Assembly: GCA_021824125.1 (NCBI GenBank)
Contig: JAKALO010000001.1
Span: forward strand, 93,486 to 148,041
From: Deltaproteobacteria bacterium
GTDB lineage: Bacteria > Desulfobacterota > Deferrimicrobia > Deferrimicrobiales > Deferrimicrobiaceae
Reading direction: 5' to 3'
DNA length: 54,556 nucleotides
Shown here in pieces: positions 25,086 through 43,586 of this stretch. The notes under the pieces were generated by a model. It made no database searches, was not told the origin of the DNA, and saw nothing but the letters and a program-made list of their open reading frames with translations. The stretch's first letter is position 1; the number at the start of each line of letters is the position of its first letter. Both the position numbers and the translations under genes were made by a program.

Positions 25086-25538
25086 TCAGAACTCGATCGA
25101 GGCGATCCGCTGCGCCAGGACGGGATCCTCCTGCCTCTTCTTCTCGAAGCGGGTGATCACATCCGTCCACCTGTCGACCGACCAGATCTCGAATCGCTTG
25201 ATCATCCCGATGATGACGATGTCCTTCTCCAGGCCCGCGTAGGCGCGCAGCGACGGCGGGATCAGGATCCTGCCCTGCTTGTCCGGGACGACCTCGACGG
25301 AGCCGCCGACGAAATACCGGAGGAAATCGTTGATGTCCTGATCGGTGCTCGGAAGCTTGGAGAGTTCCCGCTCGACCTTCTCCCATCCTTCCGCCGAATA
25401 TCCGTAGACGCAATTGTCGAAGTTCGTGATGATGAGCGATTCCTGGCCGGTATCCTTGAGAAGGTCGCGATAAGGGGAAGGGATGTTCACCCTGCCCTTC
25501 GGATCTATGGTATATTCGTGTCGTCCGCGGAAGATCAC
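25086..25538 (-). CDS. mraZ: Transcriptional regulator MraZ
   Basis: MraZ is the DNA-binding repressor of the division and cell-wall cluster and its first gene. The 150-residue product has two SpoVT/AbrB-like halves, each with the conserved DPKGRVNIP (12-20) and DKQGRILIP (about 86-94). The start is GTG at 25538 with no strong ribosome site, which may keep expression low. Its own operator, three 10-nt repeats, lies 12 nt upstream, so it is probably autoregulated. Confidence 0.96.
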   Translation of the reverse strand: MIFRGRHEYTIDPKGRVNIPSPYRDLLKDTGQESLIITNFDNCVYGYSAEGWEKVERELSKLPSTDQDINDFLRYFVGGSVEVVPDKQGRILIPPSLRAYAGLEKDIVIIGMIKRFEIWSVDRWTDVITRFEKKRQEDPVLAQRIASIEF

Positions 25539-25616: not shown

Positions 25617-25787
25617 GCAATTAATAAAAAAACCTTGCGGAAAACGGGTTTAAAAAAACGTTTTATAAGGCAGGAGATCTTTAAGGGCTAAATACTGCGT
25701 TTCATAAATACGATAACGTATCGGGAAAACAGCACGGAAGGCGCACGCAATGGGAGGGTCCGGCGGAGTCGCCGCAGCCCCCAAAAG
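25617..25787. other. AT-rich intergenic stretch upstream of mraZ
   Basis: This stretch contains A-runs and a small hairpin CGATA-ACG-TATCG (about 25711-25723). I see no gene. To its right begins the repeat element listed separately. Confidence 0.4.
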
Positions 25788-26030
25788 GGGGCTCGGCTGC
25801 GCCTGCCGGCGCCTGATACGCCTCGGAGGGGGGCGCAGTGAGGTACGCCCCAGTCGGGCATCCCGCCAGAAACGGCGAATCGGCCCTCTCCAAGCGCGGC
25901 CTCATCGACAACTGTCCCTTGAGGCCAGAAGCGCAGCCGTGCAGGTTCACCGCACGGCGAGCCACGAACGGAGTCACCCTCCGAGGCGGCGCAGCCGAAG
26001 GGGGTGTCCCGGAGGCGCAGCGACTTCCGG
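25788..26030. repeat. Dispersed repeat element, copy B
   Basis: The 76-bp core at 25955-26030 is nearly identical to the complement of 42232-42307; the two differ by about two substitutions and two compensating 1-nt indels. Weaker similarity continues to about 25840. A truncated inverted copy of the core lies to the left: 25793-25803 pairs with 25988-25998 and 25821-25830 with 25977-25986, so the element can fold into a long stem. A 73-codon plus-strand frame (25838-26059, GTG start behind GGAGGGGGG) spans it. Its product shares ARRATNGV and GVPEAQRLP with the frame of the other copy. It may be a small ORF or a non-coding mobile repeat; I cannot decide. Confidence 0.75.
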
Positions 26031-26041
26031 AGTCACAGTGC

Positions 26042-26072
26042 GGGGACGCTCCCCCGTGAGGAGAGCGTCCCC
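26042..26072 (-). terminator. Hairpin downstream of fumarase
   Basis: A perfect 10-bp stem GGGGACGCTC (26042-26051) / GAGCGTCCCC (26063-26072) lies 8 nt beyond the fumarase stop. No T-run follows on the minus strand, so termination strength is uncertain. Confidence 0.5.
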
Positions 26073-26080
26073 GCCGGTTC

Positions 26081-27694
26081 CTACCCCAGCTGCTTGAAGA
26101 AGTCGTTCCCCTTGTCGTCGACCAGGATGAACGCGGGGAAGTCCACCACCTCTATCTTGTAGATCGCCTCCATGCCGAGCTCGGGATACTCCAGCACCTC
26201 GACCTTCTTGATGTTCTCCTGTGCGAGCAGCGCCGCCGGGCCGCCTATGGAGCCCAGGTAGAAGCCGCCGTGCTTCTTGCAGGCGTCGGTGACCTGCTGG
26301 CTGCGGTTCCCCTTGGCGATCATGACGAGCGACCCCCCGTGCGACTGGAACAGGTCCACGTAGGAATCCATCCGGCCCGCGGTCGTCGGGCCGAAGGAGC
26401 CCGAGGGCATTCCCTTCGGGGTCTTCGCGGGGCCCGCGTAGTAGATGGGGTGGTCCTTCAGGTACTGCGGCATCCCCTTGCCTGCGTCCAGCCGCTCCTT
26501 GATCTTCGCGTGGGCTATGTCGCGCCCCACGATTATCGTTCCGGTAAGCGACAGCTGCGTGGTGACGGGGTGCTTCGTCAGCGTCGCAAGGATCTCCTTC
26601 ATCGGCTTGTTGAGGTCGATCCTGACCACGCCGTGCTCGTGCTTCTTCCGGTACTTCTCGGGGATGAAGCGCCCCGGGTTCCTCTCCATTTCCTCGAGCC
26701 AGATGCCGTCCCTGTTTATCTTAGCCTTGATGTTGCGGTCCGCGGAGCAGGATACGCCCATCGCGAGCGGGCATGAGGCGCCGTGGCGCGGCAGCCGTAC
26801 GACCCGGACGTCGTGGACGAAGTACTTGCCGCCGAACTGCGCGCCGTATCCGCACTTGTACGCGGCCGCAAGGATCTTCTTCTCCATCTCAAGGTCGCGG
26901 AACGCCTGGCCGCCCTTGTTTCCGGTTGTGGGAAGGCCGTCGAGGTACCCGGTGGACGCCAGTTTCACCGTCTTCAGGCACGCCTCGGCGGACGTCCCGC
27001 CCACCACGAACGCGAGGTGGTACGGGGGGCACGCCGCGGTGCCCAGCGTCTTCATCTTGTCGACGAGGAACTTCTCCAGGCTCGCGGGGTTCAGGAGCGC
27101 CTTGGTCTCCTGGTACAGGTAGGACTTGTTCGCGGAGCCGCCCCCTTTCGCGACGAAGAGGAACTTGTACTCCATGCCCTCCGTGGCGTACAGGTCGATC
27201 TGGGCGGGCAGGTTGCATCCGGAGTTCACCTCTTCGTACATGGTCAGGGGGACCGTCTGCGAGTAACGGAGATTTTCCTCGGTGTATGTCCTGAACACTC
27301 CCTTGGAGAGGAACTCCTCGTCCTTCGCGCCGGTCCAGACCTGCTGCCCTTTCTTCCCGACGATCGTCGCGGTCCCCGTGTCCTGGCAGAAGGGAAGGAC
27401 GAACTTGGCGGACACCTCGGCGTTGCGCAGCATCGCGACCGCCACCCCGCGGTCGTTGGGACTGCTCTCCGGGTCGTTGAGGATCGCCGCGACCTTCTCC
27501 TGGTGGGACGGACGCAGCAGGAAGGAAACGTCGCGCATCGCCTGGTTGGCCAGGAAGGCGAGCCCTTCCGGGGCCACCTTGAGCATCTCGACCCCGTCGA
27601 ACTTGACGACGGAGACGTGGTCCTTCGTCAACAGCCGGTACTTCGTTTCGTCCTTTCCCAGCGGGAAGGGGTCCTGGTAGGTAAACTCTGCCAT
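26081..27694 (-). CDS. fumA: Class I fumarate hydratase
   Basis: This iron-sulfur fumarase interconverts fumarate and malate in the citric acid cycle. The single 537-residue chain is the homodimeric FumA/FumB type rather than the split two-subunit form. The three cysteines expected to hold the [4Fe-4S] cluster are C103 (PFCQDTGTA), C222 ([10 protein letters not shown]) and C316 (GVSCSADRN). The C-terminal half (from about 370) contains the beta domain with [15 protein letters not shown]. The cluster is oxygen-labile, which fits an anaerobic life. AAGGAG lies 8 nt before the ATG at 27694. It is transcribed alone, after rnpB. Confidence 0.96.
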
Positions 27695-27717
27695 CGGTCC
27701 GCTCCTTTTTTGTTTTT

Positions 27718-27771
27718 GGGGGACATTCCTGATCCTGGATTTATCGAGTTTCTCGTTGAGGAGCGTCCCCC
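27718..27771 (-). promoter_or_regulatory. Structured leader of the fumarase gene
   Basis: GGGGGAC (27718-27724) can pair with GTCCCCC (27765-27771) across 40 nt that contain a smaller hairpin (CGAG-AAA-CTCG). It lies 23 nt before the start. Whether it is regulatory or a terminator of rnpB transcripts is unclear; an A-rich stretch, not T-rich, follows on the minus strand. Confidence 0.3.
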
Positions 27772-27800
27772 GAGGTGAACTGCGGGATGTCGAATAAATG

Positions 27801-28240
27801 TCCGAGGAGGCCGTAAGCCGGGTTCTGTGCGCGGCGGCGAACCGCCGCGTGACGGCCATTTCTCTAGGACGCGCGTTACCGCGCGCCTCCAGCGACCTGT
27901 ACCCGAGGGCCCCGGGCGGGCCGCCCTTCCGGTCCCGCCGGAAAACGGCGGGGCCGTCGCCCTCCTATTCGGTCTTGCTCCGGGTGGGGTTTGCCGTGCC
28001 AGGCCGGTCGCCCGGCCCGCGGTGAGCTCTTACCTCACCATTTCACCCTTACCCGCCTTCGCAGCGGCTTGCGCCGCCGCTTCGGCGGGCGGTATGTTTT
28101 CTGTGGCACTGTCCTCGGGGTCGCCCCCACCGGGGATTACCCGGCACCCTGCCCTGCGGAGCCCGGACTTTCCTCCCGCCCGCCTTCGCCATGGCTCTCG
28201 CCATGGCTACGGCGGACCGGCGGCCACCTGGCCTCCTCAG
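27801..28240 (-). ncRNA. rnpB: RNase P RNA (bacterial type A)
   Basis: This is the catalytic RNA that trims the 5' ends of tRNA precursors. Conserved landmarks read on the minus strand: GAGGAAAGTCCGGGCT near the 5' end (about 28160-28175), ACAGAA with the following ATAC in the P4-adjacent core, AGACCGAATAGGAGGGCGAC in the middle, and ACAGAACCCGGCTTA near the 3' end (about 27812-27826). The P1 helix is formed by GAGGAGGCC at the 5' end and GGCCTCCTC at the 3' end. The total length of about 440 nt is typical for type A. The 5' end overlaps the rnhA stop, so it may be processed from the rnhA transcript or use a promoter inside rnhA. Exact ends are estimated from P1. Confidence 0.95.
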
Positions 28241-30798: not shown

Positions 30799-32586
<1,788 letters not shown>

Positions 32587-41340: not shown

Positions 41341-42186
41341 TCAGGCCTTTATCCAGCGTGCGACGCGGTCCCGGCCCGCGAGATCCTTGAAAAGACCCGC
41401 GAAGCGAAGGGAACCGGAGCGCAGCCGCCCCACGGCCTCCCCCTGGGTTTCCCCGATCTCGCACCAGAGTTCGCCGCCGGGAGCCAGGCGCTCCCCCGCG
41501 CCGGCGACAAGATCCTTCAGGACGGCCAGACCGTCCGCCCCGCCAAGCAGCGCACCGGACGGCTCGTGGTCTCTCACTTCCGGGGGTAGGGAACGCCATT
41601 CCCCTTCGGAAACGTACGGGGGATTCGAAACCACTACATCAAAACGGTCCCCGCATTTCAAGGCGGAAGTTCCGTCCGCGCGCAGAAACCGTATGCGGCC
41701 GCCGACCCCGTGCCGCCGGGCGTTTTCCCGGGCGACCCGGAGCGCTCCTTGGGAAACGTCGGTCGCGATCCCTTTCGCCGCGGGAAGCTCGGCGGCGAGC
41801 GTGACGGCGATCGCCCCGCTGCCGGTTCCCACGTCCAGGAAACGTCCGCCGGGCGGTTTCCCGCGCCTCCACGAGTCGAGGACCTTTTCCACCAGCCCTT
41901 CGGTTTCGGGCCTCGGGATCAGGGTGTCCCGGGTGAGTAGAAACTCCCGCCCGAAAAAATCCCAGGCGCCGAGAATGTACTGGATGGGCTCGCCCGAGGC
42001 GCGCCGCGCGATCCACGAGCGCAACGGTCCCGCCAGGTCGCCCACCTCCCGGTCCCTCTCCGGGAACAGGCGCGAGCGCGGTACCCGCGCGAGCGCGGCC
42101 ACCAGGATCTCGGCATCCGCGGACCCCGCGACACCTGCGGCCGCCATCTCCCGCCGGCACAGGTCAAGCAGTTCGGAAATCTTCAT
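41341..42186 (-). CDS. prmC: Release factor glutamine methyltransferase PrmC
   Basis: PrmC methylates the glutamine of the GGQ motif of release factors. The 281-residue product has an N-terminal helical domain (about 1-80), the SAM-binding [16 protein letters not shown] (116-131) and the catalytic NPPY (188-191). [10 protein letters not shown] (91-100) is another family motif. In most genomes it follows prfA directly; here 332 nt of repeat DNA separate them. Confidence 0.94.
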
Positions 42187-42518
42187 GGCGACTCCATGTC
42201 ATAATTACGGCAACCTATCCAATCGTCAATACCGGAAGTCGCTGCGCCTCCGGGACTCCCCTTCGGCTGCGCCGCCTCGGAGGGGGGACTCCGTTCGTGG
42301 CTCGCCGGGCGGTCGTTCCCAAATCGCCCGTCTGCGCACCGGCCTCCAGGGCTCCGTTCCCGAAGAGGCCGTGCACCGAGAGGGTCGATGCGCCGCCTCC
42401 GGCGAGGCGCCCGACCGAGACGTACCCATGCGGTACGGTGAGGGAGGGCAACGATGCCGGGGCGGATGCAGCGGGCCTCGAATGCCGGGATCTGAGGGAA
42501 TGGAGCCCTGGAGGCCGG
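42187..42518. other. Non-coding insertion between prfA and prmC
   Basis: This 332-nt gap is filled by repeat copy A and by one arm of a 24-bp inverted repeat. I see no gene with a recognised product. Its AT-rich end (42190-42235) could provide the prmC start signals. Confidence 0.6.
42231..42451 (-). repeat. Dispersed repeat element, copy A
   Basis: Bases 42232-42307 are the near-identical complement of 25955-26030 in copy B. The weaker similarity extends to about 42440 and is clearest in a 78-codon minus-strand frame (42215-42451). Its product matches the frame of copy B in pieces such as SALS/STLS, NG/NC and ARRATNGV, with GVPEAQRLP near the end. Two compensating 1-nt indels in the core shift the frame briefly and restore it. 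A local hairpin (about 42389-42411) is present. Confidence 0.75.
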
Positions 42519-42519
42519 T
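42338..42519. repeat. 24-bp inverted repeat flanking part of the insertion
   Basis: Bases 42338-42361 and 42496-42519 are inverted copies with 23 of 24 positions matching (core CCGGCCTCCAGGGCTCC). The right arm ends at the prfA stop codon and the left arm lies inside repeat copy A, enclosing 134 nt. It could form a long stem in the prfA mRNA. Confidence 0.8.
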
Positions 42520-43586
42520 CAGCCGGCGCTTTTGAGCGCCTCGACCTGTGCGTTCGCGGTCAACGCGTCGATGAATGGGTCGAAGCCGCCGTTCAGCACC
42601 TGTGTCAACTGGTGGACGGTGAACCCGATGCGGTGGTCGGTCACCCGGCTCTGCGGGAAGTTGTAGGTCCGGATGCGCTCGCTCCTGTCCCCGGTCCCGA
42701 CCTGGGAGCGGCGCATGTCGGCCCGGCCGGCCTGCTGCTTTGCCAACTCGGCGTCGTAGAGCCGCGACCGGAGGATCTTGAGCGCCTTCGACTTGTTCTT
42801 GAGCTGCGACTTCTCGTCCTGGCACTGGACGACGAGGCCCGTGGGAACGTGCGTGATGCGGACCGCCGAATCCGTTGTGTTGACGCTCTGCCCGCCGGGG
42901 CCCGAGGAGCGGAACACGTCTATGCGAAGTTCGTCGGGGTTGATTTGAACGTCGACCTCCTCTGCCTCGGGCATCACGGCGACGGTGACGGTGGAAGTGT
43001 GGATCCGCCCGCCGGCCTCGGTGGCGGGGACCCGCTGGACCCGGTGTACCCCGCTTTCGTACTTCATCCGGCTGTAGGCGCCCTTCCCCTCGACCATTGC
43101 GATCACTTCCTTGGTCCCCCCCAGCCCGGTCTCGCTGTGGGACAAAACCTCGACCGTCCAGCCCTTGAGCCCGGCGTACATGGAGTAGGCGCGGAACAGC
43201 TCGGCCGCGAAGAGCGCCGCCTCGCCACCCCCGGCCCCCGCCCGGATCTCGATCAGGATGTTCTTCTCGTCGTTGGGGTCCTTGGGTAGGAGAAGGAGCC
43301 GGACCTCGGCGGTCAGCCGCTCCAGCTCAAAGGAGAGGCGGGACAGCTCCTCCCGGGCCATCGTCCGCATCTCGCCGTCCTTTTCGGACTCCAGGAGTTC
43401 CTGGTTCTCCGCGAGTTCTCGGGTCATTTTCCGGTACCGTTCGAAGGCATCGCGAAGCACGCGCAGCTCCGCCAGTTCCCTTCCGACTCTCTGCATCTCC
43501 CGGTTGTCCCCGACGACAGACGGGTCGCTCATCCGGCGTTCCAGGTCGTCAAAGCGGGCTGACACCGTTTTCAACTTATCCCACAA
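42519..43586 (-). CDS. prfA: Peptide chain release factor 1
   Basis: RF1 ends translation at UAA and UAG. The 355-residue product has the stop-codon recognition tripeptide PAT (187-189), within [16 protein letters not shown], and the catalytic GGQ (231-233) in [18 protein letters not shown]1 rather than RF2 is shown by PAT in place of SPF. The start codon is TTG at 43586 with GGAGG six nt upstream; it overlaps the preceding gene by 11 nt. Confidence 0.96.

Follow-up and report, generated by a model that had tools for sequence, protein, structure and literature searches.

Decayed Copies of a Probable Non-Autonomous Transposable Element in a Genome of the Deferrimicrobiaceae

Two similar cores of 76 bp, which lie in opposite orientation in the DNA examined here (54,556 nucleotides of contig JAKALO010000001.1, referred to as the window), are very probably parts of two decayed MITEs (non-autonomous transposable elements) that belong to one family. 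The copies of this element that are dispersed across the Deferrimicrobiaceae, a family of uncultured bacteria, constitute a real mobile element that encodes no protein, and the two copies in the window, A and B, would have been mobile as well, judging from their relatives. The family is set apart among MITEs by its target rule and by a mosaic palindromic interior. No published description of it was found in the papers searched, which lie mostly outside the subscription literature.

Copies of the Element and Their Ends

The preliminary description of this DNA was based upon the resemblance of the two cores, which alignment places at exactly 2 substitutions and two 1-nt gaps; a repeat search of the window confirmed their inverted orientation by three inverted matches of 27–31 nt (94–100% identity) and also recovered a partial inverted relative of the core at 25810–25833. 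In a similarity search of the 2.6 Mb draft genome, a 106 bp region around the core of copy B gave 18 matches with E ≤ 0.001, consisting of itself, copy A (E = 1e-28) and 16 others. The core is present in about 18 copies in the source genome and in 13 of 24 genomes of the family, with Deltaproteobacteria bacterium CSP1-8, FeB_35, CSMAG_819, and DeMMO2_54 among its carriers; the lineage probably corresponds to MBNT15/Deferrimicrobia. The presence of two inverted copies within one window could suggest that they arose by chance or through a local segmental duplication (25.9 to 42.2 kb), but this is exceedingly improbable, since copies are found genome-wide and in 12 other genomes and A is flanked by sequences unrelated to those around B. 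The core was also observed on two short contigs (5.8 and 6.9 kb) in bins of other groups, viz. Nitrospirae WY2.bin1 (L104) and Sulfuricaulis S40-5 (L116), which represent either mis-binned contigs or transfer.

Side-by-side reading of the copies led to the recognition of a larger unit, in which the core forms part of an element of about 230–490 bp bounded by terminal inverted repeats (TIRs) GTGCTNCRYTTCATAAATACGG. The interval 25788–26059 originally outlined for copy B contains a real repeat, but it covers only part of the element, which begins on its TIR side at 25688 and shows homology to about 26039 (Table 1). Of the full copies, the best one (C204:37523-37750, loci L004/L043) has CATAAATACGGCAACGTATC at both ends, inverted relative to each other; this end is present 12 times in the genome, and the same pattern written backwards, as a control, not once. 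The TIRs of intact elements are about 22–34 bp long (GTGCTNCRYTTCATAAATACGGcaacgtatc), and the TIR GTGCTNCRYTTCATAAWTACGG was found in 20 of the 24 family genomes, against one match for its backwards control. In all, 54 TIR-paired elements of 74–580 bp were identified, a few of which are possibly one element counted in two overlapping loci. Copies A and B have each retained one TIR; as many copies of the core, including both of these, lack one or both TIRs, transposition by means of the TIRs is by itself insufficient to account for every copy.

Table 1. Parts of copies A and B and their neighbours in the window.
Feature	Position	Strand	Basis
Copy B, degenerate element that has lost its right TIR	25688–~26039	+	TIR match G000:C37:119173-119198; homology to L065/L004 up to ~26039
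CTAA, left half of CTWAG target with TAA flanking triplet, copy B (right partner lost)	25688–25691	+	Sequence and CTWA/TIR rule
Left TIR, copy B, ATACTGCGTTTCATAAATACGATAACGTATC	25692–25722	+	TIR matches
Extra arm, copy B, between GTGAGG and GCGCAG, common to L068 and L080	25838–25930	+	
Central hairpin, copy B: stem CCGTGC/GCACGG, loop AGGTTCACC	25937–25957	+	14 distinct stems with compensatory change
76 bp core, copy B	25955–26030	+	Similarity search and alignment
Neighbour of copy B: fumarase-like gene (3' end)	26081–27859	-	Name read from translation
Neighbour of copy B: mraZ-like gene	25086–25538	-	Name read from translation
Copy A, left TIR lost, between prfA and prmC	~42190–42525	-	Junction comparison and homology
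Remaining TIR, copy A	42190–42220	-	
76 bp core, copy A	42232–42307	-	Alignment
Central hairpin, copy A: ACGGGC/GCCCGG, 15-nt loop	42305–42331	-	
Extra arm, copy A	42329–42528	-	Repeat search and interior comparison
Neighbour of copy A: prfA	42519–43586	-	
Neighbour of copy A: prmC	41341–42186	-	

The cores had also been read as a family of small proteins sharing the residues ARRATNGV and GVPEAQRLP. In agreement with what was described, RRATNGV...GVPEAQRLP can be read in one frame in both window copies, where the two indels compensate each other and the frame is open, and copy B contains a GTG at 25838, behind a G-run, which opens a frame of 73 codons. However, the ARRATNGV frame meets a stop within 105 nt in 36 of 54 copies and the length of a C-run within the core varies from 4 to 7 nt among the copies, which together indicate that the frame is not kept; additionally, the lengths of the spacers are not multiples of three, and chance open frames are common in GC-rich DNA. 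This candidate was hence rejected, and its probability is negligible. The residues of A and B align in register because the two are copies of one DNA repeat, and the paired elements, in which the frame of the core is not conserved, have no coding capacity, as in MITEs. These observations are a warning that repeats of this kind can be mistaken for small genes in annotation.

Two further repeats were noted. A second dispersed string, GGGACGTTCYTWARAAC, is found near gene ends in L012, L014, L018, L019, L080, and other family loci, and in a by-eye comparison it resembles the GGGGWSAS-type ends of tyrosine-transposase elements (PMC3733652). Within a predicted minus-strand gene of the window, positions 32304–32371 hold three overlapping 32-nt copies with a spacing of 18 bp.

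Insertion Signature and Placement Among Genes

The TIR pairs carry a distinct insertion signature. An exact flanking duplication of 3 bp is present in 33 of the 54 pairs and absent in the other 21, and none shows a duplication of 2 or 4 bp, so that the target-site duplication is of fixed length, as is characteristic of MITEs. The duplicated triplet is TAA or TTA in 32 of the 33 cases, mostly within CTWAG, and CGG in the remaining one. With regard to their placement, among the 72 elements for which enough context was available only one falls within a predicted gene, compared with 158 of 234 random points, and at 8 of the 23 gene ends that face a TIR element its boundary is at most 1 nt away. 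When the flanks were joined to reconstruct 18 empty sites, 12 were intergenic, six fell on a stop codon and none was inside a gene; five of the seven CTWAG sites of the window lie inside genes, both of these counts being small. Gene calls were made with a codon-score caller written for this analysis and seeded with four recognised genes, due to which individual calls may be wrong. The longest ORF of the fumarase-like gene beside copy B starts within a bacterial RNase P RNA (27799–28239, minus strand), and the true start of this gene is therefore probably nearer to 27694.

A model that fits this signature is that a transposase supplied in trans would recognise the two TIRs of an intact, gene-less element and insert it at CTWAG, where cuts 3 bp apart would lead to the duplication of TWA (TAA or TTA). 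Since this triplet frequently serves as a stop codon, an element landing at a gene's end would leave the stop in place, which would allow elements to occupy operons and gene ends with the genes intact.

The junction between prfA and prmC, in which copy A is located, provides an orthologous site where the presence and absence of the element can be compared among relatives. In 15 of the 19 genomes in which this junction was resolved (three further loci were left out), the gap between the two genes is at most 16 bp. The gap is 332 bp in the source genome, due to copy A, and 171 bp in G010, where an independent TIR element that begins 1 nt beyond the TAA stop of prfA fills it; gaps of 695 bp and 68 bp were found in G006 and G017, respectively. 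Thus, the mobile repeat that had been offered as one alternative in the preliminary description has gained strong support from the many intergenic copies, the TIRs, the 3 bp duplications and the empty sites in relatives.

The TIR tip of copy A contains a GGAG (42195–42192) 5 nt before the ATG of prmC, which from its position is a possible ribosome-binding site for this gene. A promoter-like TTGACG-17-AATTAT match, which together with the GGAG is created by the TIR end, was also observed upstream of prmC (42195–42229). It is possible that this end of copy A influences the expression of prmC.

Folding and Mosaic Structure of the Interior

Most of the elements are predicted to fold strongly. On a rough scale (25 approximate dinucleotide shuffles for each sequence), 47 of 50 elements had a z-score below -2 with a median of -6.4, compared with a median of -0.2 for 30 control 200-mers of the window, and the scores of copies B and A were -4.4 and -5.4, respectively. 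The 76 bp core alone folds no better than its shuffles (z = 0.09), indicating that the folding signal requires the whole element. The central hairpin is found as 14 distinct stems, which average 5.29 of 6 Watson–Crick pairs as against 3.96 after shuffling of the right arms (at most 4.86 among 2000 shuffles). Similarly, 37 simple copies contain 6 pairs with change on both sides and 27 such cells, where the shuffle maxima were 5 and 13; the shuffle controls for both of these comparisons leave in the relatedness of the copies.

The strong folding, the compensatory changes in the stem and the location of some copies inside operons could also be explained by a structured RNA (an mRNA stabiliser, attenuator or terminator) that was dispersed by any means and kept for that role. 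This part of the earlier interpretation stands as far as structure is concerned, but the core occurs in both orientations relative to its co-directional neighbours (14:11), contrary to what a strand-specific RNA element would be expected to show. Further, no Rfam family matches the elements in the window, where only RNase P and one tRNA pass the covariance models, no terminator-like signal was detected in copy A and the one in copy B is at chance level, and the folding advantage is not found in the core alone. DNA repair or template switching can also preserve the pairing of palindromes; hence the reported pairing is no proof of an RNA and cannot tell one from DNA palindromes. A structured RNA kept for its function is, for these reasons, very unlikely.

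The interior of the transposable element is notable for the exchange of its parts. Among pairs of TIR-bearing elements, 305 are alike over at least 70% of their interior and 414 share it only partially. The interiors were grouped by coverage clustering, as single linkage merged nearly all of them because of their shared modules. The arms are swapped and inverted between copies at a constant position between GTGAGG and GCGCAG, where simple copies contain only a short linker. In copy A, the arm (query 6–192) aligns to L065 at 95% but in reverse, its core (170–332) aligning in the same orientation, and the tip of the arm (46–158) corresponds to most of the interior of a simple element of about 160–180 bp. 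This interior is enclosed by a 43-nt outer inverted repeat (42329–42371 and 42486–42528; 79% complementary). The arm in copy B is a different one, which L068 and L080 also possess. It would appear that the GC-rich interior between the TIRs folds as a long branched hairpin. The arms of this hairpin behave as modules, which copies have traded, inverted and nested, and recombination or template switching at the palindromes is the probable mechanism.

Relationship to Known Systems and Distribution Outside the Family

Bacterial MITEs, e.g., RUP, Correia/NEMIS, Nezha, QMITE2, and MITEAba12 (reviewed in PMC10969869; PMC2229807), are likewise short and gene-less, with TIRs, a target-site duplication, an intergenic location and would-be transcripts that fold strongly. 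QMITE2 is found mainly in 3' untranslated regions (PMC10969869), similar to the placement near gene ends seen here. In contrast to these AT-rich elements, which target TA, the present family is GC-rich, has CTWAG as its target with duplication of TWA, and contains a mosaic of swappable branched palindromes. No IS element is known to have these TIRs. Members of the IS5/IS1031 group duplicate TNA or TWA, and the TAA and TTA duplications observed here conform to this; the 3-nt site and its duplication are shared with this group and also with the eukaryotic Tourist-like MITEs of PIF/Harbinger. A 3-nt insertion site is documented for the IS1031 group of the IS5 family (PMC2516522). Unlike in that group, no transposase with the present TIRs was found, and it is the 3 bp TWA duplication that suggests a DDE enzyme of the IS5/IS1031 kind, by which the elements would be moved in trans.

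The search for such an autonomous partner, which was non-exhaustive, covered transposase loci and TIR flanks and yielded none. No TIR was present at any of 26 PF01609 (IS4/IS5 DDE_Tnp_1) loci, and 40 regions at apparently unpaired TIRs contained no TIR pair more than 600 bp apart; these TIRs are mostly solo ends or belong to short elements beside ordinary-looking genes.

The palindromic nature of the copies, their extragenic location near gene ends and the large number of cores without TIRs would also be expected for a REP-like palindrome spread as single-stranded hairpin DNA by a RAYT/TIRYT tyrosine transposase (a relative of IS200/IS605), with the TIR forming an outer shell of some copies. 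IS200/IS605 transposition is not known to make target duplications of the sharp 3 bp kind seen here. Y1_Tnp matches are present in 15 of the 24 family genomes, but the number of cores does not track them, as G010, G013, and G014 contain many cores and no Y1 match, and no Y1 gene is linked to the elements: in the examined flanks of 16 Y1_Tnp loci neither the TIR nor the core was found, except for one weak core-like string with 3 mismatches. REPs and BIMEs share with the present elements their composite mosaics and both orientations, and RAYT-like genes flanked by TIRs are known; however, REPs are GTAG-tagged units of 20–40 bp as against 74–580 bp here, and the RAYT/TIRYT systems differ from a family with TIRs, 3 bp duplications and no Y1 linkage (PMC3733652; PMC2817692). 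On balance, spread by such a transposase is unlikely.

Outside the family, 395 sampled genomes of the phylum yielded seven with one TIR match each, while plasmid and phage records gave only weak matches at chance level. In five of the seven (L369–L373, from other Desulfobacterota families), the TIR marks the ends of short elements whose inner palindromes or sequences are unrelated, for instance CCCTCCCCCTTGAAGGGGGAGGG and TGACAATAATCGTTTGTCA-type fold-backs. By eye, four of these are flanked on both sides by TTA (L370, L373) or TAA (L371, L372), and L369 lacks a duplication. Of the other two, L368 stops at the edge of its contig and L374 is one-sided. Lastly, the viral contig IMGVR_UViG_3300032173_000143 contains a 113 bp element (L375:1140-1252) with the family TIR and TAA on both sides, between genes that by eye are terminase-like and portal-like, an arrangement that suggests a possible vehicle between hosts. 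In the elements outside the family and in the viral contig, therefore, the ends are shared and the interiors differ. A more speculative proposal, which we consider doubtful, is that one TIR/TWA system extends across Desulfobacterota, and once into a viral contig, with palindromes as its cargo: entirely different fold-backs in different lineages and, in this family, a combinatorial set of arms, so that what spreads may be the palindromic arm and not the transposon. If true, this would be a two-level mobile system, in which a TIR carrier is combined with hairpin exchange, of a type absent from the papers searched.

With the work reported here, two repeats that were puzzling as a pair can be assigned to a defined family of mobile elements with a measurable target rule (CTWAG, with duplication of TWA), and the re-creation of stop codons upon insertion would provide a simple account of how these elements spare genes. 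The swapped palindromic arms constitute a rare data set for studying how bacteria come to have long hairpins, how the pairing of these is maintained and how they are exchanged.
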